NCBI RefSeq assembly: GCF_025854275.1
Contig: NZ_CP107567.1
Location: 806,001-870,000 of the forward strand
Reading direction: 5' to 3'
Source: Streptomyces peucetius
GTDB lineage: Bacteria; Actinomycetota; Actinomycetes; Streptomycetales; Streptomycetaceae
DNA: 64,000 nt
This document shows, one piece after another, positions 9,188 to 18,915 of this stretch (position 1 is the first letter of the stretch; every line of letters begins with the position of its first letter). The notes under the pieces are model-generated. The model was not told the origin of the DNA, did no database searches, and was given only the letters and a program-made list of their open reading frames with translations. The translations under genes and the position numbers were made by a program.

Positions 9188-10207
9188 TCACACTGTGGCC
9201 GCCGGGCCGACGAGCTCTCCGAGGACGTCCTCCATGGTGACGTAGCCCAGGACCGCGCCCGTGTCCCCGGTGACGGCCGCCAGGTGGCTGCCGTCCGTGC
9301 GCAGGGCTGTGAGCGTGTCGTCGAGCGGGGTGTCGATGCGGACGCGGGTGACCGGGTGGAGCGCGGTGCGGGGAAAGGGTTGGTCGCGGTCGGTGACGCC
9401 CAGGGTGTCCTTGATGTGGAGGTAGCCGAGGACGGCTCCGGTCGGACCGGTGACGGGGAAGCGGGAGAACTTGGCTGCGGCTGCGGCCCGTTCCAGGCCG
9501 GCGGGCGTGATGGTGTGGTCGACGCTGTGCATCCGCCGGGCGGGGACGAGGATCTCGCCGACCGGTCGGGTGCCCAGTTCCAGGGCGTCGCGCAGGCGCT
9601 CGCCGTCGGCAGGCGAGAGGAGCCCGGCCTCGCTGGAGTCCTCGACCATGCGGGCCAGCTCCCCGTCGGTGAACACCGATGCGACTTCGTCCTTCGGCTG
9701 CACCTTCAGCAGGCGCAGCAGGATGTTGGCGAAGGCGTTGATGGAGAACACGAACGGGCGCAGGGCTCGGGTCAGGGCGACGAGTGGAGGGCCGAGGAGA
9801 AGGGCGGTCTTCGCCGGGGCGGCGAGGGCGATGTTCTTGGGGACCATCTCGCCGATCAGCATGTGTGCGTAGGTGGCCGCCGTGAGCGCGATGACGAAGG
9901 CGATCGGGTGGACCATGACGTGCGGGATGTGGGCCGCTTCGAAAGCGGGCTCCAGCAGGTGGGCGATGGCGGGCTCTGCGACCGCACCGAGCACCAGCGA
10001 CGAGGCGGTGATGCCGAGCTGGGCGGTGGCCATCATCTGGGAGAGGTGCTCCAGGCCCCACAGAGTGGTCCGCGCCCGGCGGTTTCCCTGCCGGGCCGCG
10101 GGTTCGATCTGGCTTCTGCGCACGGAGATCAGGGCGAACTCGGCCGCGACGAAGAAAGCGTTGGTCAGCAGGGTCAGGGCGCCGATGAACAACTGCAGCG
10201 TGGTCAT
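9188..10207 (-). CDS. CNNM/CorC-like membrane protein, short form
   Basis: A 339-residue paralogue of the 6682-7704 protein. DUF21 membrane helices occupy residues about 1-180 (FFVAAEFALISV, TAQLGITASS, LIGEMVPKNIA) and a CBS pair occupies about 200-330, with a late VTMEDVLGELVG. It lacks the CorC/HlyC C-terminal domain. The start ATG overlaps the preceding stop (ATGA, 10204-10207), so it is co-translated with the long form. Family role: cyclin-M-like divalent cation handling at the cytoplasmic membrane. Specificity is unknown. Confidence 0.85.
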   Translation of the reverse strand: MTTLQLFIGALTLLTNAFFVAAEFALISVRRSQIEPAARQGNRRARTTLWGLEHLSQMMATAQLGITASSLVLGAVAEPAIAHLLEPAFEAAHIPHVMVHPIAFVIALTAATYAHMLIGEMVPKNIALAAPAKTALLLGPPLVALTRALRPFVFSINAFANILLRLLKVQPKDEVASVFTDGELARMVEDSSEAGLLSPADGERLRDALELGTRPVGEILVPARRMHSVDHTITPAGLERAAAAAKFSRFPVTGPTGAVLGYLHIKDTLGVTDRDQPFPRTALHPVTRVRIDTPLDDTLTALRTDGSHLAAVTGDTGAVLGYVTMEDVLGELVGPAATV

Positions 10208-11538
10208 CGGGCCTCCTGAAGGTCCTGCTGCGAGAGGCGGGCCGGTGCGGTGATCTGCACCCGGTCGGCCCGGTGGTGCTCGACGTCCAGGACGTCGAGG
10301 CGCCAGCCGGCCACCTCGACCGAGTCACCCTCGACCGGGATACGGGCCAGTCGCGTGGCGATCAGGCCGGCCACGGTCTCGTACGGGCCGGCCGGCGCGA
10401 GGAGCCCTATGCCGGCGAGCTGGTCCATCCGCACGCTGCCGTCGGCCTCCCAGGAGGCGCGACCGTCGCCGGTCGGCGGCGCGACGAGAAGGTCGGGGGT
10501 CTCCAGCGGGTCGTGCTCGTCACGTACCTCACCGACAACTTCCTCGACGATGTCCTCGACCGTGGCGACGCCTGCCGTGCCGCCGTACTCGTCGATGACG
10601 ACGGCCATCGTGCGCTCGGCCCGCATCCGCTCCAGCAGCCGATCGGCGGGCAGGCTGTCCGGCACCACCAGGGGCGCGGTCGCCAGCGACAGCACCGGCG
10701 TCGTCGCACGCTGCTCGGGAGCCAGGGCGAGGACATCACGGATGTGGACGGTGCCGACGACCTCGTCGAGGCTGTCGCGGTAGACGGGAAAGCGGGACAG
10801 GCCGGTCGCGAACGTGAGGTTGGCCGCGTCGGTGGCCGTGGCATGTGTCTCGAGCGCGATCACGTCCACGCGCGGCGTCATCACGTTCTCCGCGGTCAGC
10901 TCGCCGAGATGAAGCGTTCGGACGAACAGCTCCGCGGAGTCCTGCTCCAGCGCGCCCGCGCGAGCCGAATGCTGGGCGAGCGCCACCAGCTCCTCCGGGG
11001 TGCGGGCAAAAGCCAGTTCCTCGGCCGGCTCCAGTCCGAAGCGGCGCACGAACCGGTTCGCCGTGCTGTTCAGATGCTGGATGAACGGCCCGAACGCGGC
11101 GGTGAAGCCGCGCTGCGGACCGGCGACCACCTTGGCCACGGCCAGCGGACGTGAAATGGCCCAGTTCTTCGGCACCAGCTCACCGACCACCATCAGCACC
11201 ACCGTGGAGACGACCACCCCGAGGACGGTGGCGACGGACGAGGCCGCCGCTCCGAGTCCGACGGCTGCGAGTGGGCCGCGCAGCAGCGCGGCGAGCGAAG
11301 GCTCGGCCAGCATGCCGATCACCAGGGACGTGACGGTGATGCCGAGCTGGGCACCGGAGAGTTGAAGGGTCAGCTTGCGCACGGCCTTGAGCGCGCTGTC
11401 GGCTCCACGCTCACCCGCCTCGGCGGCACGCTCCAGATCACCGCGCTCGACGGTGGTCAGCGAGAACTCGGCCGCGACGAACAGCGCGCAGGCCAGCATG
11501 AGGGCCAGGGCCAGCAGGAGCAGCAGAAGCTCGATCAC
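10204..11538 (-). CDS. CNNM/CorC-like membrane protein, long form
   Basis: A 444-residue protein and the first gene of the four-paralogue run. It has DUF21 helices (residues about 1-185, with LFVAAEFSLTTV, GAQLGITVTS and VVGELVPKNWA), a CBS pair (about 205-340, with VMTPRVDVIAL and GVATVEDIVEEVVGE) and a CorC/HlyC domain at the C-terminus (about 360-435, YETVAGLIATRLARIP). GTG 11538 (VIELLLLL) follows GGGGGTGG. A candidate promoter overlapped by a BlaI-like dyad lies 133 bp upstream (11669-11697), which would place the CNNM run in the regulon proposed for this region. Confidence 0.87.
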   Translation of the reverse strand: MIELLLLLLALALMLACALFVAAEFSLTTVERGDLERAAEAGERGADSALKAVRKLTLQLSGAQLGITVTSLVIGMLAEPSLAALLRGPLAAVGLGAAASSVATVLGVVVSTVVLMVVGELVPKNWAISRPLAVAKVVAGPQRGFTAAFGPFIQHLNSTANRFVRRFGLEPAEELAFARTPEELVALAQHSARAGALEQDSAELFVRTLHLGELTAENVMTPRVDVIALETHATATDAANLTFATGLSRFPVYRDSLDEVVGTVHIRDVLALAPEQRATTPVLSLATAPLVVPDSLPADRLLERMRAERTMAVVIDEYGGTAGVATVEDIVEEVVGEVRDEHDPLETPDLLVAPPTGDGRASWEADGSVRMDQLAGIGLLAPAGPYETVAGLIATRLARIPVEGDSVEVAGWRLDVLDVEHHRADRVQITAPARLSQQDLQEAR

Positions 11539-11668
11539 CGTGCCACCCCCGCTCCCTCGCTCATCCGGCGTCGGCAGGTGGTGACACGGCTCGTACTGGG
11601 AGGTTCACCCATCGGGGGCCGTTGCTCCTTCTCGTGCAGGGGGTGGCAGAGGCACCGAGACACCCGGG

Positions 11669-11697
11669 CTTCTACAACCACTGTAAAGGAATGGCAA
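11669..11697 (-). promoter_or_regulatory. Promoter plus BlaI-like operator of the CNNM run
   Basis: On the minus strand TTGCCA (11692-11697) and TAGAAG (11669-11674) are separated by exactly 17 bases. The imperfect dyad TCTACA-N5-TGTAAA (11671-11687) overlaps the -10 element. The spacer is 5, against 4 at the other three sites, so this is the weakest match. Confidence 0.5.
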
Positions 11698-11828
11698 ACG
11701 AGGCGGCACGGCACGGGCCCGGACTTTTGCCGCAGCTGCCCGTTCCGTGATCTGGGCGGGGGGCTGATTCCGGACTCACCGACGAAGGCTGAGTTTCACC
11801 CCTGGCAGGGCCCGCCGACCTCTATGCT

Positions 11829-11844
11829 TCTACACGCATGTAGA
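11829..11844 (+). promoter_or_regulatory. BlaI-like operator TCTACA-N4-TGTAGA
   Basis: A perfect dyad, TCTACA CGCA TGTAGA, lies 28 bases upstream of the GTG at 11872, where it would block the promoter of the HhH and Spo0M genes. Its arms are identical to those of the dyad at 15699-15714. Confidence 0.65.
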
Positions 11845-11871
11845 TGTTGAGTCGCTCCGCAGGAGGCTGTT

Positions 11872-12090
11872 GTGACGTCGATGGATCTGACCAAGGTGCT
11901 GGACAAGGCGTGGGCGGACAAGCCGCTCGCCGATGTGCTCGGCGCGCCCGTCGCCGCGCTCAAGGGGGTGTCGGACCGGGACGGCGAGCTCCTCAAGGAG
12001 GCGTTCGGCGTCGAGACCGTGGCGGACCTCGCCGACCTCAAGTACGTCCGCTGGGCGCAGGCGCTGGCCGCGCTGGCTGCAGTGAAGTAG
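11872..12090 (+). CDS. Small helix-hairpin-helix protein
   Basis: A 72-residue protein with a helix-hairpin-helix-like core (GVSDRDGELLKEAFGVETVADLADLKYVRWAQAL), resembling the short DUF4332/HhH modules that bind DNA non-specifically. GTG 11872 has an ideal AGGAGG at 11861-11866. It is the first gene after a BlaI-like operator and is followed 75 bases later by Spo0M. Small HhH proteins of this type accompany tellurium-resistance and stress genes; no specific function can be assigned from the sequence. Confidence 0.7.
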   Translation: MTSMDLTKVLDKAWADKPLADVLGAPVAALKGVSDRDGELLKEAFGVETVADLADLKYVRWAQALAALAAVK

Positions 12091-12165
12091 TCACCGACCG
12101 TCGTCCCGGCCAGGACGGCGGAGTTACGCAGAAATCACAAGCATCTCGAAGGAGTGAACGCCACG

Positions 12166-13173
12166 ATGGTGTTCAAACGCCTGCTGGGCTCGATCGGTGT
12201 CGGTGGCCCGGCCGTGGACACGGTACTGACATCCGGAACAGTGCCGCCCGGTGGCAGCCTCACCGGCCAAGTCCATCTCAAGGGCGGCAACGCGGACTTC
12301 GACATCGAGCACATCACGCTGGAGCTGGTGGCCCGCGTGGAGGCGGAGACCGACGACGGGGAGCGCGAGGGCGTCGTCGTCTTCGAGCGGTTCCGCGTCG
12401 GGGCCGGTTTCCGCCTCTCCGAGGACGAACAGCACAGTGTGCCGTTCACGGTGGCTCTGCCGTGGGAGACCCCGATCAGCGTGCTGCACGGCCAGCCGCT
12501 CGGCATCGTCCTCGGCGTACGCACCGAGCTCGGTGTCGCCGGCGCCAGGGACAAGGGCGACCTCGACGCGCTCGCGGTGCAGCCACTGCCCATCCAGGAG
12601 GCGATTCTGGAGGCGTTCGGGCAGACCGGTTTCGGGTTCAAGTCCGCGGATCTCGAGTACGGCCGCATCGGCGGCACCGGGCAGCAACTGCCCTTCTACC
12701 AGGAGATCGAGCTCACGCCTGCTCCGCAGTACGCGCATGCCGTCAACGAGATCGAGGTGACCTTCCTCGCCACCCCCAGCGGCATGGAGGTCGTCCTGGA
12801 GGCCGACAAGCGCGGCGGGCTGTTCACAGGCGGCCACGACACGCTGACCCATTTCACCGTCAGCCACCACGGTGTCGAGCACACCGACTGGAACGCCGAA
12901 GTGGAGAACTGGGTGCGACAGCTCGTCGAACACCGTGCCTCCTACGGAACTCACTCCGCCTCCGGCCACGGCGAGGCTCATCACGGCGGCCACCACCACG
13001 ACACAGATCACGGCCACCGGTCCGGACCAGGAATGGGGACCGTCGTCGCGGCCGGCGCGGCCGGTCTTGCGGTCGGCGTCGTCGGCGGGATGGTCGCGGC
13101 CGAAGTCGTCGACGAGGTGGGCGACTTCTTCGAAGGCGACGAGGACGAGGGCGAAGAGGGTGACGAGGGCTGA
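12166..13173 (+). CDS. spo0M: Spo0M-family (SpoOM, arrestin-fold) protein with His-rich tail
   Basis: The first 240 residues match the Spo0M family, a two-lobed arrestin-like fold: start MVFKRLLGSIGVGGPAVDTVL, then a conserved GGSLTGQVHLKGG segment. Spo0M proteins influence sporulation and cell division in Bacillus and occur beside Ter genes in actinobacteria. The last 90 residues are unusual: a histidine-rich stretch (HGEAHHGGHHHDTDHGH), a hydrophobic Ala/Gly/Val segment that may be a membrane anchor, and an acidic end (EGDEDEGEEGDEG). ATG 12166 is preferred over GTG 12154 because GAAGGAG (12148-12154) is then correctly spaced. A metal-binding tail is inference. Confidence 0.8.
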   Translation: MVFKRLLGSIGVGGPAVDTVLTSGTVPPGGSLTGQVHLKGGNADFDIEHITLELVARVEAETDDGEREGVVVFERFRVGAGFRLSEDEQHSVPFTVALPWETPISVLHGQPLGIVLGVRTELGVAGARDKGDLDALAVQPLPIQEAILEAFGQTGFGFKSADLEYGRIGGTGQQLPFYQEIELTPAPQYAHAVNEIEVTFLATPSGMEVVLEADKRGGLFTGGHDTLTHFTVSHHGVEHTDWNAEVENWVRQLVEHRASYGTHSASGHGEAHHGGHHHDTDHGHRSGPGMGTVVAAGAAGLAVGVVGGMVAAEVVDEVGDFFEGDEDEGEEGDEG

Positions 13174-13186
13174 GCCGACTCCGCCC

Positions 13187-13213
13187 TTGACAGCTTCTAT
13201 ATCACTGTAGAAG
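13187..13213 (+). promoter_or_regulatory. terB promoter overlapped by BlaI-like operator
   Basis: A consensus -35 TTGACA (13187-13192) is followed by the dyad TTCTATA TCAC TGTAGAA (13195-13212). The right arm contains the likely -10 (TAGAAG, 13208-13213; spacer 15, short). Repressor binding would cover the polymerase site of the terB transcript. Confidence 0.6.
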
Positions 13214-13278
13214 AAATCGGCGGTTCCGGACCGCTCTCCCGTACGGCCCGGACCGCCCCTGACACATATGGAGTTCTC

Positions 13279-13734
13279 ATGGCCCTGTGGGACCGCGTCA
13301 AGGAATCCGCATCGACGATGCAGACCCAGCTCATGGCGAAGAAGAACGACCTGAAGAGCGGCGCCTTCCGTGACGCCTCCATGGCGATGTGCGCCCTGGT
13401 CGCCGCCGCCGACGGCACCATCGACCCGTCCGAACGGCGCCGCGTGGCCCAACTGATCGCCACGAACGAGGTGCTGCAGAACTTCCCCGCCGACGACCTC
13501 CAGCGCCGCTTCGACGACAACCTGGGCAAGCTGACCGCCGACTTCGACTTCGGCAAGGTCGGCGTCATGCAGGAGATCGCCAAGGCGAAGAAGAAGCCCG
13601 CCGAGGCGCGCGCCGTCATCCAGATCGGCATCGTCATCGGCGGCGCGGACGGCGACTTCGACAAGACCGAACAGGCCGTCGTCCGCGAGGCCTGCTACAC
13701 CCTCGACCTGCCGCCACACGAGTTCGACCTCTGA
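13279..13734 (+). CDS. terB: TerB-family tellurite resistance protein
   Basis: A 151-residue all-helical protein of the TerB family, recognised from the conserved core AFRDASMAMCALVAAADGTIDPSER and the second repeat IGIVIGGADGDFDKTEQAVV. Both repeats carry the acidic DGxxD turns thought to bind metal. TerB acts in the cytoplasm or at the membrane with TerC/TerD in tellurite, phage and envelope-stress responses. It has its own promoter and operator upstream and a hairpin terminator (13742-13770) directly downstream, so it appears to be a single-gene transcript. Confidence 0.88.
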   Translation: MALWDRVKESASTMQTQLMAKKNDLKSGAFRDASMAMCALVAAADGTIDPSERRRVAQLIATNEVLQNFPADDLQRRFDDNLGKLTADFDFGKVGVMQEIAKAKKKPAEARAVIQIGIVIGGADGDFDKTEQAVVREACYTLDLPPHEFDL

Positions 13735-13741
13735 TACCGAC

Positions 13742-13770
13742 GGCGTCGCCACGCCTTGCGTGGCGACGCC
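13742..13770 (+). terminator. Terminator hairpin after terB
   Basis: GGCGTCGCCACGC pairs with GCGTGGCGACGCC around a 3-base CTT loop, giving a 13-bp perfect stem 8 bases after the terB stop. Confidence 0.85.
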
Positions 13771-13813
13771 ACAGCGGGGCAAGAGCCCAGAAGCCAACCA
13801 GGGAAGGAGGACC

Positions 13814-14077
13814 ATGGAGATCAGCGGCATCATCAGCGCGATCGTGATCGGCATCGTCATCGGCGTACTCGGCAGGCTCGTCCTGCCGGGCAGGCAGAGG
13901 ATCGGCGTCCTGTGGACCATCGCCGTCGGTATCGTCGCGGCGTTCATCGGCACCGCTCTCGCCGCGGCCATCGGCGTCGCGGATACCAAGGGCGTCGACT
14001 GGATCGAATGGCTCATCCAGATCGCGCTCGCCGCCACGGGAGTGGCCGCACTCGAACGGTTCAAGGCCCCTCGCTGA
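13814..14077 (+). CDS. GlsB/YeaQ/YmgE-family stress membrane protein
   Basis: An 87-residue, three-helix membrane protein typical of the GlsB/YeaQ/YmgE (transglycosylase-associated) family: a first helix with IVIGIVIGVLGRLVLPGRQ, then a glycine-rich GIVAAFIGTALAAAIG and a final helix. The family is induced by envelope and acid stress; its molecular activity is not established. ATG 13814 is preceded by a strong GGAAGGAGG (13802-13810). The gene is separated from terB by a terminator. Confidence 0.85.
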   Translation: MEISGIISAIVIGIVIGVLGRLVLPGRQRIGVLWTIAVGIVAAFIGTALAAAIGVADTKGVDWIEWLIQIALAATGVAALERFKAPR

Positions 14078-14143
14078 GACCCCTGCCGACCACCCCGCCG
14101 ACAGGACTTTCATCACTCGGCGGCGGCCACGAGCAGCGCCGGG

Positions 14144-15082
14144 TCACAGAGGCGTTGCCGCCCTCAGAATGAAGAACAAGGTGACGGCCGAATTCGCCGA
14201 GGAGAGCGCCGAGGCCGTCGCACCGGCCGCCGCGCCCCATGTGGCGAGACCGACCGTGGTCGACAGCGGCGGCCACACGCGCGCCGCGGGCGCCGGCTCC
14301 AGCAGGGCCGCCACCCGGCGCGGGACGGGTCCCGCCGCCGCGAGCCCGGCGAGCGTCGCGACGGGCGCGCCGCGTGTGATCAGCCCCGCTTTGCCGATCG
14401 CGCGGGCCACGACGCGCCGGCTTCCGACCGCCGCGGCGGCCTCCTCGTCCGCCCACCGCTCGGCCGTGTACGTCACCGCGGTCCGCAAGGGCCGCAGGAA
14501 CGGGTTGACCCGCGCGGCCAGCTGCACCGCCAGCAGGAAGCGGTCATGACGGCCGACCAAATGGGCCCGCTCGTGCGCGAACAGCGCCCGGCGCTCCGAC
14601 GAGCTCAGACCGGCCAGCATCCCAGTGGTGACCACGACCCGGTCACGCTCCCGGCGCCTGCCGGGCAGTGCGTACGCGTACGGCGTGCGGTCCGGCAATA
14701 CCGCCACGGACCGCGACGGAAGTGTGGAGAGGGCCTGAGTGGCCCGGCGCCGTACGCGGTGGTGGCGCCAGGCAGCTCGGCAACACGACGCGAGCACGGC
14801 CACCAGTGCAGGGATGGCGACTTTGCCTGCAACCTCGTCGTAAGGGACCGCCTCCCGCACCTCGGGGTCGGACCAGCCGTCGGGGAGCGGGTTGCCCGGC
14901 AACTGCGCGGTGCCGACCACGACGAGCAGCGCGAGGCACAGCGTGCTGCACACGGCGAGCACGCCGGCGACCGCAGACAGCAGCCAGGTGGCGGCGCGTG
15001 GATGCAGATGGTGCTCGGCAAGGCGCGCCACCGGCCACGCGCTTAAGGGCAGTACCAGCGGAAGGAAGACGAAGACCCCCAT
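14144..15082 (-). CDS. M56-family (BlaR1/MecR1-like) membrane metallopeptidase
   Basis: The protein is about 312 residues long with N-terminal membrane helices (LPLVLPLSAWPVARLAEHH, AAVAGVLAVCSTLCLALLVVV-like segments). It has a zinc protease motif H170-E-R-A-H174 inside SSERRALFAHERAHLVGRHD, an acidic third-ligand region RWADEEAA, and C-terminal hydrophobic segments. This is the BlaR1/MecR1-type M56 architecture without a penicillin-binding sensor domain. Such proteases inactivate a partner BlaI-type repressor upon an envelope signal. ATG 15082 lies 4 bases after the stop of the BlaI gene, with GGGGAAGG in the repressor's end, so the two are one operon. The signal sensed is unknown. Confidence 0.85.
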   Translation of the reverse strand: MGVFVFLPLVLPLSAWPVARLAEHHLHPRAATWLLSAVAGVLAVCSTLCLALLVVVGTAQLPGNPLPDGWSDPEVREAVPYDEVAGKVAIPALVAVLASCCRAAWRHHRVRRRATQALSTLPSRSVAVLPDRTPYAYALPGRRRERDRVVVTTGMLAGLSSSERRALFAHERAHLVGRHDRFLLAVQLAARVNPFLRPLRTAVTYTAERWADEEAAAAVGSRRVVARAIGKAGLITRGAPVATLAGLAAAGPVPRRVAALLEPAPAARVWPPLSTTVGLATWGAAAGATASALSSANSAVTLFFILRAATPL

Positions 15083-15086
15083 GCGG

Positions 15087-15491
15087 TCAGCCTTCCCCTT
15101 CCTCGGCCGCTTGAGCCAGCAGGTCACGGAGCAGTTGCTCGTCGCCCGGGGGCAGCGCCGTCACGAAGCTCGCGAGGACCGCCTCCCGGTCCGCCTCCGC
15201 GTCCAGCACCTTCCGCATCCGCAGCGCGGCGAGCCCGGCCTCGTCGGCGTTCGGCGTCCACGCGAACGACCGGCCCGCGCGCTCACGCGAGACGGCGCCC
15301 TTCGCATGGAGCCGGGTCAGGATGGTGATGACGGTGGTGTATGCGAGATCGCCGCCGAGCCGCCCCTGCACCCACGCGGTGTTCACCGGCCCCGGCGCCT
15401 CACGCAGCGCAGCCAGCACCAGGCCCTCCAACTCGCCCTGGCCTCGCCGGCGAGATTGCTGAGGGCCGCCGCCCTGGTTCTGGCCCGTCAT
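15087..15491 (-). CDS. blaI: BlaI/MecI/CopY-family transcriptional repressor
   Basis: A 134-residue protein with the BlaI/MecI winged helix: GELEGLVLAALREAPGPVNTAWV, then the recognition region LAYTTVITILTRLHAKGAVSRERAGR, matching the family's TVxTxLxRLxxKGxVxRExxGR, followed by a C-terminal helical dimerisation region. BlaI proteins bind dyads containing TACA...TGTA, which is exactly what lies upstream of this gene (15699-15714) and at three further places in the cluster. It is co-transcribed with the M56 protease and very probably autoregulated. Confidence 0.9.
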   Translation of the reverse strand: MTGQNQGGGPQQSRRRGQGELEGLVLAALREAPGPVNTAWVQGRLGGDLAYTTVITILTRLHAKGAVSRERAGRSFAWTPNADEAGLAALRMRKVLDAEADREAVLASFVTALPPGDEQLLRDLLAQAAEEGEG

Positions 15492-15697
15492 GCCGTCTCC
15501 CTCCCGATTTCTCCGACCCGGCGCACCAGGCGCTGGAGCAGTTCATCGTACTGAGTGGTGATGCCGCCGTAGGCCCGCGTTCCCCCCGTGTTGGGCCGCT
15601 CGCCGCATGAAGCGTGAGTGTGTGACCACCGAGGGTCAGGAGCCACCTGGCCCGACCGATGAAATCCGGGCAGCCATCCGCATGGGAGCCAGGCAGA

Positions 15698-15715
15698 TTC
15701 TACAGTGATGTAGAT
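15698..15715. promoter_or_regulatory. BlaI-like operator in the divergent blaI/terD gap
   Basis: A perfect dyad TCTACA GTGA TGTAGA (15699-15714) lies between the divergently transcribed blaI-M56 operon and the terD gene. It can regulate both directions, as expected of an autoregulated BlaI-type repressor. Confidence 0.7.
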
Positions 15716-15774: not shown

Positions 15775-16350
15775 ATGGGTGTGAGCCTCGGCAAAGGTGG
15801 CAACGTTTCACTGAGCAAGGAGGCACCGGGACTGACCGCGGTACTGGTCGGCCTCGGCTGGGACGTACGGACGACGTCCGGCGCGGACTTCGACCTCGAC
15901 GCGAGCGCGCTGCTACTGAACGAGACCGGCAAGGTCGTCTCCGACCAGCACTTCGTCTTCTACAACAACCTGACCAGCCCCGACGGGTCGGTCGAGCACA
16001 CCGGCGACAACCTCACCGGCGAGGGCGAGGGCGACGACGAGTCCATCAAGGTGAACCTGGCCGCCGTGCCGGCCGGCGTCGCCAGGATCGTCTTCCCCGT
16101 CTCCATCCACGACGCCACCGCCCGCGGACAGAGCTTCGGACAGGTCCGCAACGCCTTCATCCGCGTCGTGAACCAGGCCGGCGGCGCCGAGCTCGCCCGC
16201 TACGACCTCTCCGAGGACGCCTCGACCGAGACCGCCATGGTCTTCGGCGAGCTCTACCGCAACGGCACGGAATGGAAGTTCCGCGCCGTCGGCCAGGGTT
16301 ACGCCTCCGGACTCGCGGGCATCGCCTCCGACTTCGGCGTCAACGTCTGA
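15775..16350 (+). CDS. terD: TerD-family protein
   Basis: A 191-residue canonical TerD domain protein starting [16 protein letters not shown]. The Ca2+-binding acidic loops are visible: [13 protein letters not shown] and [19 protein letters not shown], followed by [17 protein letters not shown] at the C-terminus. TerD proteins are cytoplasmic, bind calcium and take part in tellurite, oxidative and phage stress responses and in Streptomyces development. ATG 15775 is chosen over 15757 because it matches the family N-terminus and has GGGAAGGGA upstream. The divergent BlaI-like operator is 60 bases upstream. Confidence 0.93.
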
Positions 16351-16418: not shown

Positions 16419-16679
16419 GTGTTCGGACTCAGCGAGCTCGCGATACTCCTGATCGTCATCCTCATCGTGTTCGGCGCAAAAAAGCTCCCGGACCTGGCCC
16501 GCAACGCGGGCAAGGCAGCACGCATCCTCAAGAGCGAGGCCAAAGCGATGAAGGCACCGGAGCAAGCGGCCAGCACACAGCAGCCGGCTCCCCGAATCAT
16601 CCAGGGACACCAGGTCGACCACACTGGCCCACACAGCAGCGGCGGCACCACGAGAGGCGACGGGCCCACGCGGCTCTGA
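16419..16679 (+). CDS. tatA: TatA/TatE-like twin-arginine translocase subunit
   Basis: An 86-residue protein with the TatA plan: a single N-terminal membrane helix (FGLSELAILLIVILIVFGAKK), the FG hinge, the amphipathic helix KLPDLARNAGKAARIL, and a disordered tail. TatA forms the pore of the twin-arginine translocase. GTG 16419 is preceded by GAGAAGGCGG. It lies between two terD genes on the same strand and probably shares their transcript, an unusual place for a Tat component. It is presumably an accessory paralogue of a housekeeping TatA elsewhere. Confidence 0.85.
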   Translation: MFGLSELAILLIVILIVFGAKKLPDLARNAGKAARILKSEAKAMKAPEQAASTQQPAPRIIQGHQVDHTGPHSSGGTTRGDGPTRL

Positions 16680-16722: not shown

Positions 16723-17304
16723 ATGTCCGTGAACCTGTCCAAGGGCCAGCAGATCAGCCTGAGCAAGTCCGACGGCGGCGCGCTCAGCGTCGTACGGATG
16801 GGGCTGGGCTGGAAGTCCGCGCCCCGTAAGGGGTTCCTCGCGCGGATGACCGCCCGCGAGATCGACCTGGACGCCTCTGCGGTGCTCTTCGCCGACAAGC
16901 AGCCGGTGGACGTCGTCTTCTTCCAGCACCTGGTCAGCGACGACGGCTCGGTACGCCACACCGGCGACAACCGCGTCGGCGGCGCGGGCCAGGGCGGCGA
17001 CGACGAGTCGATCCTCGTGGACCTGGCGCGCGTACCGCTGCACGTCGACCAGATCGTCTTCACGGTGAACTCGTTCACCGGCCAGACCTTCGCCGAGGTC
17101 GAGAGCGCCTTCTGCCGCCTCCTGGACGAGACCAACGGCCAGGAGCTGGCCCGCTACACCCTCACCGGCGGCGGCCGCTACACCGCCCAGATCATGGCCA
17201 AGGTCCACCGCGCCGGTACCGGCTGGCAGATGGCCGCCATCGGCAGCCCGGCGGACGGCCGCACCTTCCAGGACCTCATGCCGACCATCGCCGCCCACCT
17301 GTAG
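16723..17304 (+). CDS. terD: TerD-family protein, second copy
   Basis: A 193-residue TerD domain protein (MSVNLSKGQQISLSKSDGG). It has the acidic metal loops EIDLDASAVLF and DGSVRHTGDNRVGGAGQGGDD and the late AIGSPADGRTFQDLMP. It differs from the first copy by an insert after WKSAPRKG and a shorter aromatic core, so it is an ancient paralogue rather than a recent duplicate. It is the last gene of the terD-tatA-terD run; an insertion sequence begins 21 bases after its stop and has displaced whatever followed. Confidence 0.92.
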   Translation: MSVNLSKGQQISLSKSDGGALSVVRMGLGWKSAPRKGFLARMTAREIDLDASAVLFADKQPVDVVFFQHLVSDDGSVRHTGDNRVGGAGQGGDDESILVDLARVPLHVDQIVFTVNSFTGQTFAEVESAFCRLLDETNGQELARYTLTGGGRYTAQIMAKVHRAGTGWQMAAIGSPADGRTFQDLMPTIAAHL

Positions 17305-17325: not shown

Positions 17326-18915
17326 TTAGCTTGATCATTAACCTCGCTGCTGTTTCAGGCGGACGTGTTCGGTGAGGGTTTCGATTCGTTTCACGGTCTT
17401 CCCAGGCTCGTGACGTGGGGCTGGCCTGCGGTTCTTCGAGCCGGGTGGGCGTCCGGGGCCGGGCTTGGAGGGTCTGGGCACATCGGCGGGACGGGCGGTC
17501 TTCACGCGGAGGTGGCGGAACCCCCGGCGCACCCGGGCAGGGGTGAGCCGACGAGGCTGAGTCGGCCGCTCCCAGGGCCGACGAAGATCCTCGGCGAGGG
17601 GCCGGGCAAGGCGGAGTTGAGTGTGGGCGGCGATGATCAACCACGTCCACAGGTCGGCCGAGTGCGGATCGCGGACCTTGGGGACGGTCCAGCCCAGAGT
17701 CTGCTTGAACAGCCGGAAGGTATGTTCAAGATCGAATCTGCGCAGGAACGCCTGCCAGCGCAGATCGACGTCTTCGCCGGTCAACCCGGTGCGCGAGGAC
17801 CACAGCCACACCGGCTTCGGATCGCGGTCACCGGGCAGGTGGTGGACCTTCAGCCGGATCAACGTGCCGTGGATCAAAGGGAGTTCACCGCAGTGGTCGA
17901 GCCAGGGGCCACGGGCCTGCAATCGGGGGTGTATCCGGTCCCAGGCGAGGGCTTCGGCCGTGCCGTAGCGGGTGGTGTCGCACGTCGTGGCCTGGTCAGG
18001 GGTGTGCCAGGACTCCGGCTTGGAGAAGGTGAGGACGCCGCCGTGCTTGCGGGGCTGTCCGCCGCGCGGGGTGGAGCGACGCGGTCCGGCATCCCGGAGC
18101 ATGACCCGGTCCGAGCGGAGCCGGCCTACCAGCTCAACAGGCAGGTCGGCCAGGACATAGGCGAGGCGGGTGACGTCGTAGCCGGTGTCCAGGACGACGA
18201 GGATGTCCGCGTCGCCCGGCCGCCACTGCCCGGCGTGCACCAGCCGGGCGACCACCTCCCGCAGCTGGGCGGCGGTCACCGCGGTGGCGTCGTCGGTCGG
18301 CCCCAGCCGGATCGCGTCCAGCACGGCCGTCCAGGACGTGCGCCCGGTCTCCAACGCGGCAACGAAGGAGTAAGGCCAGCCGGGGATGAACTGATCTGTG
18401 CTGCGGCCTCGCCCGTAGACGTGGCAGAACAGCAGGCCAGGGCTGGTGGGGGCGTCGGGCCGCAGCCAGTTGCTCACGTCGACGGCGAGGACGATCCGCC
18501 CGTCGGCCGCACGCGGCAGTGGCGTGGAGGCAAGCAGCCTGCGCAAACGGCGCGGCTCCAGCCAGCCGTGGTTGACCGCGTTGTACATCGCTCCGTGCCC
18601 TCGCCGGTGCTCGGCCGTGAGCGTCAACTCGACCAGCGACGTCACTGGGCCGTCCGAGCACAGCACCGCGTCGGTGAGCTCGAAGAGCGCATCCGCCCGG
18701 GTGTAGAGGCAGTCGTAGAACTGGACACGAAAGTGGGACAGGACACCCAACGCAGCATCAGCGGACTGTTCAAGGGCGAGACTCTTCACCAGCGGCCGTT
18801 TCTTCACGCGACGTTGCTCAACACCTCGAAGCGTGAAGAACGGCCGCCCTGCTGTCCCGGGAATGAACCAAGATCAGCTGGTCAGGTGAACGGCTGAGGT
18901 TAAACGCCAAGCTAA
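17326..18915 (-). mobile_element. Insertion sequence of about 1.59 kb
   Basis: The ends are imperfect inverted repeats. TTAGCTTG-N4-TTAACCTC begins at 17326; the right end, reverse-complemented from 18915, reads TTAGCTTG-N4-TTAACCTC with a different N4. One transposase gene fills the element. No target duplication is obvious. It sits immediately after the second terD gene. Confidence 0.8.
17338..18807 (-). CDS. IS701/NF041680-type DDE transposase
   Basis: An apparently complete 489-residue transposase. Visible features are a LAVDVSNWLRPDAPTSPG segment with the first catalytic Asp, a second region LVVLDTGYDVTRLAYVL, and the late RRFDLEHTFRLFKQTLGW holding the catalytic Glu. This is the DDE RNase-H-like layout of IS4/IS701-related elements frequent in Streptomyces. 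The tail is Arg/Pro-rich. The gene fills the element between its terminal repeats and shows no frameshift, so the copy may still be mobile. Confidence 0.85.
   Translation of the reverse strand: MKKRPLVKSLALEQSADAALGVLSHFRVQFYDCLYTRADALFELTDAVLCSDGPVTSLVELTLTAEHRRGHGAMYNAVNHGWLEPRRLRRLLASTPLPRAADGRIVLAVDVSNWLRPDAPTSPGLLFCHVYGRGRSTDQFIPGWPYSFVAALETGRTSWTAVLDAIRLGPTDDATAVTAAQLREVVARLVHAGQWRPGDADILVVLDTGYDVTRLAYVLADLPVELVGRLRSDRVMLRDAGPRRSTPRGGQPRKHGGVLTFSKPESWHTPDQATTCDTTRYGTAEALAWDRIHPRLQARGPWLDHCGELPLIHGTLIRLKVHHLPGDRDPKPVWLWSSRTGLTGEDVDLRWQAFLRRFDLEHTFRLFKQTLGWTVPKVRDPHSADLWTWLIIAAHTQLRLARPLAEDLRRPWERPTQPRRLTPARVRRGFRHLRVKTARPADVPRPSKPGPGRPPGSKNRRPAPRHEPGKTVKRIETLTEHVRLKQQRG

Follow-up and report, generated by a model that had tools for sequence, protein, structure and literature searches.

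A TCTACA-N4-TGTAGA dyad conserved beside BlaI, Ter and envelope genes in Streptomyces suggests a BlaI/BlaR1-like regulon

In a 64,000-nucleotide stretch of the Streptomyces peucetius chromosome (the window; contig NZ_CP107567.1, positions 806,001 to 870,000), the inverted repeat TCTACA-N4-TGTAGA, called here the dyad, precedes Ter-type stress genes and a HhH/Spo0M gene pair, and a BlaI-family repressor and a membrane metalloprotease are encoded among these genes. Based on sequence comparison, it is likely that a BlaI/BlaR1-like switch would control a Ter and envelope regulon through these dyads as operators. The dyad is conserved before the corresponding genes of other Streptomyces, and, among 61 Streptomyces genomes, its exact form was found only in those with a BlaI scoring at least 80 bits against this one. 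The dyads of the window and the two regulatory genes are the following:

11829-11844, + strand, exact dyad (TCTACACGCATGTAGA), preceding HhH/Spo0M
13196-13211, + strand, dyad with one mismatch to TCTACA-N4-TGTAGA (TCTATATCACTGTAGA), preceding terB
15699-15714, + strand, exact dyad (TCTACAGTGATGTAGA), 207 base pairs (bp) from blaI and 60 bp from terD
15087-15491, - strand, BlaI-family repressor (PF03965, Penicillinase_R, 76 bits, cut-off 22.6)
14144-15082, - strand, BlaR1-like membrane metalloprotease without a sensor domain (HERAH and ERWADE motifs)

At up to two mismatches, these three dyads compare with a mean of 0.31 in shuffled versions of the window, and none of 100 shuffles reached three. 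An earlier note on this DNA had placed the dyad, or a close variant, at four promoters; this is confirmed, the fourth, at 11671-11688, being a different element with the N5 spacing that the note had already given. Its proposal of a BlaI and protease pair agrees with the Pfam match of the first and the HERAH motif of the second. A -10-like TATGCT (11823-11828) abuts the 5' side of the 11829-11844 dyad and, as read by eye, the dyad of Spo0M, HhH and many terB sites is abutted by a -10-like TATRCT or GATAACT, the latter recurring beside the terB dyad in relatives, while at terD and tatA sites it runs into TAGATT, a possible -10. To judge from these arrangements, RNA polymerase could be blocked from either dyad position relative to the -10.

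A scan of 61 Streptomyces genomes gives 105 exact dyads, spread over 37 of them, against two occurrences of the reversed control. Neighbouring genes were counted for 75 of these sites; in the seven genomes that hold the other 30, one BlaI region each was read. In 66 of the 75, a gene for BlaI, TerD, TerB, Spo0M, HhH, TatA or CNNM starts within 250 bp and points away from the dyad, with median distances of 57 bp (TerB) and 62 bp (first TerD type); the value of 66 is an underestimate, since a terB start is misplaced in L134 and a terB was missed by gene calling in L054. That missed terB accounts for one of the nine remaining sites. Three others lie at PAP2 genes (L048, L052, L085), and single ones at an LCP (LytR-CpsA-Psr) gene (L071, 165 bp), at a DUF347 gene (L084, 219 bp), at an unknown 84-residue protein (L054), 435 bp from TerD2 (L061) and inside a gene (L058). 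The 84-residue protein is encoded in both L054 (5458-5712) and L035 (4130-4384) with a dyad 54 bp upstream, exact in the former and with one mismatch in the latter, and the L035 copy has no Pfam or NCBIfam match.

For TerB, genes were collected by protein search, and 46 of the 48 first-clade upstream regions were used (G057:2589437 and G048 were left out). With at most one mismatch, the N4 dyad is present in 34 of the 46, and no other spacing from 0 to 11 is found; at two mismatches the counts are 35 for N4, 11 for N7, 4 for N2, 3 for N6 and 1 for N10. The best-mismatch counts of the TerB upstream regions split into 0-3 or 4-7. According to the earlier note, a lack of the dyad upstream of orthologues would refute the operator idea. 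Applied here, this test did not refute it: upstream of many TerB, TerD, Spo0M/HhH and TatA genes the dyad is kept, and over the 61 genomes it goes together with BlaI.

Moreover, the 8.05-Mb chromosome itself holds four exact dyads, two in the window and two near 3.91 Mb, where a second cassette contains terD-tatA-terD, blaI, protease, terB, Spo0M and HhH genes, with three dyads of its own before terD, terB and HhH. The DNA of both cassettes is 87-89% identical over two blocks and the BlaI copies are 95% identical. Where the dyad of one cassette carries a mismatch (terB in the window, HhH at 3.91 Mb), the other cassette has the exact form. No CNNM gene is recognised in the 20-kb stretch around the 3.91-Mb cassette.

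The dyad also follows the presence of BlaI. With a threshold of 80 bits to the BlaI of the window, placed at a gap in the score distribution, 48 of the 61 genomes have such a BlaI. These include all 37 genomes with an exact dyad, and none of the 13 genomes lacking such a BlaI has one (Fisher p 3.8e-7, a significance inflated by relatedness among the genomes). Eleven genomes have such a BlaI and no exact dyad: 1-mismatch forms are observed in the BlaI regions of G004, G011, G015, G035 and G041 and before terB in G016, G020, G033 and G040, the form in G047 has two mismatches, and the region read in G060 has none. Where only a distant BlaI or none is found, six of seven first-clade TerB genes have no dyad, with a 2-mismatch form in G011.

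Two other ideas were rejected. In the first, the dyad would belong to Ter genes independently of BlaI. All 13 genomes without such a BlaI keep TerD genes, 81-86% identical to the TerD of the window, and the idea fails because the dyad is absent from 36 of their 37 TerD upstream regions and from all nine second-clade TerB genes examined, one of which belongs to this genome (the nine were taken from 21 near-full-length genes). In the second, any BlaI would do; this genome has three further clear BlaI genes (at 748400, 719221 and 4459578; two marginal matches of 22-23 bits were left out), and their 3.3-kb loci contain no dyad at up to two mismatches.

The same dyad is found at BlaI loci without Ter genes. 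The exact dyad lies 6-75 bp before blaI, with no Ter gene in the stretch, in L037, L039, L051, L060, L076 and L083 of Streptomyces, and in L205, L211 and L217 of a class-wide sample, L205 and L217 being from families other than Streptomycetaceae. By Pfam, the partner genes are of the VTT/DedA type in L051, L076, L211 and L217 and of the PAP2 type in L039, L083 and L211, and an ArsR-type gene stands beside the dyad in L205. Also, in 14 non-Ter loci (a grouping of our own), 9 of the 17 sites have a second dyad, at up to two mismatches, exactly 19 bp away (eight pairs, both members being counted in L132); no second dyad is found in these loci at other offsets from 10 to 45 with up to three mismatches, and none of 74 other sites has a 19-bp partner. 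Three further observations concern genes near dyads: LCP genes adjoin them in L066 (5121-6518, beside a cassette) and L071 (3606-4910, beside a CNNM run), a penicillin-binding protein gene starts 326 bp from one in L037, and in L038 a 216-residue protein, membrane-type by sequence (9272-9922; no Pfam or NCBIfam match), has an exact dyad 51 bp upstream, and its gene is divergent from blaI and has tatA after it.

The partner protease has 312 residues, with the HExxH metalloprotease motif as HERAH, and no transpeptidase domain, that is, no penicillin-binding sensor, is detected in it at E up to 1. It scores 54.7 bits with PF01435 (M48) and 14.1 bits with PF05569 (BlaR1 peptidase M56), below the cut-off of 31; relatives in L211 and L205 exceed this cut-off, and the listed homologues are mostly annotated as M56 where their sources name them. 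A structural model gives its top score with BlaR1, an M48 protease following less than 1 Z behind. This suggests that the protein may resemble the membrane and protease part of BlaR1, without the sensor domain. The aligned copies keep HExxH and ExxAD with a sole exception in L040 (G009:C1:1588000-1598000), a short BlaI-linked protease with HGRTH in place of HERAH, the L038 copy of the same genome retaining HERAH.

From these data we infer the following mechanism. The dyads would be the operators of the 15087-15491 BlaI and of its 3.91-Mb copy, and binding of a BlaI dimer over the -10/start region would keep terD-tatA-terD, terB and HhH-Spo0M, and perhaps also the CNNM run, switched off. Autoregulation of blaI is only a possibility in this locus, with the dyad 207 bp away. 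A signal from the envelope would activate the membrane protease. Lacking a penicillin-binding sensor, this protein would need another means of sensing. Its membrane part may serve, the candidate being the loop of residues 57-86, which close homologues strongly conserve. The activated protease would then cleave BlaI and the regulon would open.

Some results limit this proposal. The TTGACA at 13187-13192, which the earlier note had read as a promoter feature overlapping the terB dyad, is not conserved before terB in the relatives compared, where the -10-like GATAACT recurs, and a role of TTGACA as a conserved -35 was rejected. Among 246 genomes sampled across the class, the dyad is present in 13 of 22 Streptomyces and in 15 of 224 others (16 sites), the reversed control giving five, all outside Streptomyces; in these 15 outside loci BlaI stands beside the dyad only twice, so that the link between both is firm within Streptomyces and only hinted at beyond. 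Finally, the CNNM genes are the weakest branch of the proposed regulon, their site having N5 spacing within a conserved leader:

11672-11688, - strand, N5 variant dyad, TCTACA-N5-TGTAAA, reading TTTACA-N5-TGTAGA towards the CNNM gene
11535-11612, - strand, conserved 25-residue leader peptide (MGEPPSTSR..GVAR), whose stop overlaps the CNNM start (GTGA)
10204-11538, - strand, CNNM/CBS/CorC protein at the head of the CNNM run (PF01595, PF00571, PF03471)

The N4 scan misses this element. It is exact and 127-137 bp before the first CNNM gene in five of seven close orthologues (>700 bits, window included), and TTTACA-N5-TGTAGA has seven matches in 7 of the 61 genomes, all beside CNNM genes, against two for the reversed control. 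In this case, a serious competitor, to which we give somewhat less weight than to its negation, is that the element belongs to a conserved leader RNA and is not a BlaI operator. Its N5 spacing differs from that of the N4 dyads, a leader peptide of constant length lies downstream in all seven loci with the element (L219-L225; in the window, at 11535-11612), and in the RNA consensus part of the element pairs with the Shine-Dalgarno of the peptide, a predicted stem reaching into the CNNM GTG start. The peptide before the CNNM gene is reminiscent of the MgtL leader. Nonetheless, covariation is weak and the fold of the leader RNA in the window is no better than shuffles (z 0.38), and about as far from the gene there is a TCTACA-N5-TGTAGA in L071 and an N4 dyad with a single mismatch in L069.

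Regarding the signal, the earlier note had spoken of envelope or metal stress. The envelope part gains from the DedA-type (VTT), PAP2 and LCP genes at dyads; for metal, nothing is found beyond the CNNM genes. Among the members of the DedA and PAP2 families are undecaprenyl-phosphate transporters and undecaprenyl-pyrophosphate phosphatases. It is conceivable, if speculative, that the sensor-less BlaR1-like protease uses its short outer loop to detect directly when the membrane or the undecaprenyl-phosphate lipid carrier is disturbed, and that BlaI opens both the DedA/PAP2/LCP and the Ter/Spo0M/CNNM modules. If so, Ter proteins would belong to an envelope lipid-carrier stress response with two interchangeable defence modules, one for carrier recycling (DedA, PAP2, LCP) and the other comprising Ter/Spo0M/CNNM. 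Rather unlikely, in our view, is that BlaI binds the dyad but comes off it upon meeting a cytoplasmic ligand, for example a fragment of the cell wall, the protease being secondary. Gamma-D-Glu-diamino-acid dipeptides are described as releasing Bacillus licheniformis BlaI and Staphylococcus aureus MecI from DNA (PMC3305447), and here the protease has no sensor domain and 6 of 56 BlaI frames have no adjoining protease gene; however, the gene adjoins BlaI in the other 50, and its catalytic motifs are kept as described above.

The spacing scan gave, among the matches listed, N4, 19 of N2 and one N1, with no other spacing. The N2 form was rejected as part of the same regulon: 10 of 14 regions have TetR-like and FAD-monooxygenase-like genes by eye, Pfam agreeing for seven of these neighbour genes (L226, L227, L232, L236), and as exceptions L233 has the FAD gene without the TetR-like one, L237 and L238 have different neighbours, and L239 holds the N1 site. 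These sites are probably a separate TetR-controlled set; in L226-L236 they are often paired, about 29-44 bp apart. The same half-sites beside TetR genes, N4 neighbours without a family, the ArsR-type gene of L205 and a 147-residue protein in L064, MarR-like by eye, could point to another dimeric regulator, co-inherited with BlaI and Ter genes, as the one that binds the dyad, but this is improbable given that BlaI is the regulator that accompanies dyads both with and without Ter genes (within 250 bp at 22 of the 75 sites), that in the loci without Ter genes it lies 6-75 bp behind dyads, often tandem ones, and that such a BlaI is missing from none of the 37 genomes, among the 61, with an exact dyad.

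A comparison with known systems places the proposal. As in BlaI-BlaR1 and MecI-MecR1 of S. aureus, a BlaI-family repressor stands beside a membrane zinc protease and inverted TACA/TGTA half-sites are present (PMC7593790, PMC7253601), but here there is no penicillin-binding sensor, a scan of ten genes at 9-19 kb of the window shows no beta-lactamase or resistant penicillin-binding protein, the spacing is N4 and not the N2 given there, and the targets are Ter, Spo0M and TatA genes. CopR-CopY copper repressors, of the same family and with similar half-sites, have a KACA-N2-YGTM core (PMC7253601), whereas no TerB upstream region has N2 spacing at up to one mismatch, a protease partner replaces copper binding, and the window BlaI scores 23.6 with the NCBIfam CopY model (cut-off 121.95). 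Clostridium thermocellum BlaI_0696 and BlaI_1845 also have BlaR1-type partners, with autoregulation and ordered sites for four protomers; their sites are GTCTAT repeats 5 nucleotides apart, and the regulons described in the accessible text are small and name no Ter genes (PMC8457756).

The Ter genes of the window belong to PF05099 and PF02342 like other Ter-type stress genes, with genes for TatA, Spo0M and CNNM nearby, and differ from known Ter systems in adjoining a repressor and protease pair. No published description of BlaI control of Ter genes was found by title and abstract start, most subscription journals being outside reach. A BlaI repressor paired with a membrane protease is a known arrangement. 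New in the present variant are the proposed regulon, the N4 spacing, the absence of a sensor from the protease and the exchange between two target modules. To our knowledge, the inducing signal and the job of Ter proteins are poorly understood, and operator, repressor and protease would give a direct route to both, since identifying the inducer of the switch would identify the stress that the Ter module answers. Also, the switch would extend beyond beta-lactams in antibiotic-producing bacteria, and a motif this short and exact would make much of the regulon readable from a Streptomyces genome sequence.

The other genes of the locus are:

11872-12090, + strand, HhH-like protein, 72 residues, named from the earlier note only (no Pfam match for 11878-12090 and no NCBIfam match)
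12166-13173, + strand, Spo0M (PF07070)
13279-13734, + strand, TerB (PF05099)
13814-14077, + strand, 87-residue protein after terB, membrane-type by sequence (no Pfam match, weak NCBIfam match)
15775-16350, + strand, TerD (PF02342; alternative start 15757)
16419-16679, + strand, TatA-like protein (PF02416, TIGR01411)
16723-17304, + strand, second TerD (PF02342)

Rfam gives no match at 9-19 kb of the window, up to E 1. Directly after the second terD lies a putative transposase gene (17338-18789; NF041680, 572 bits).

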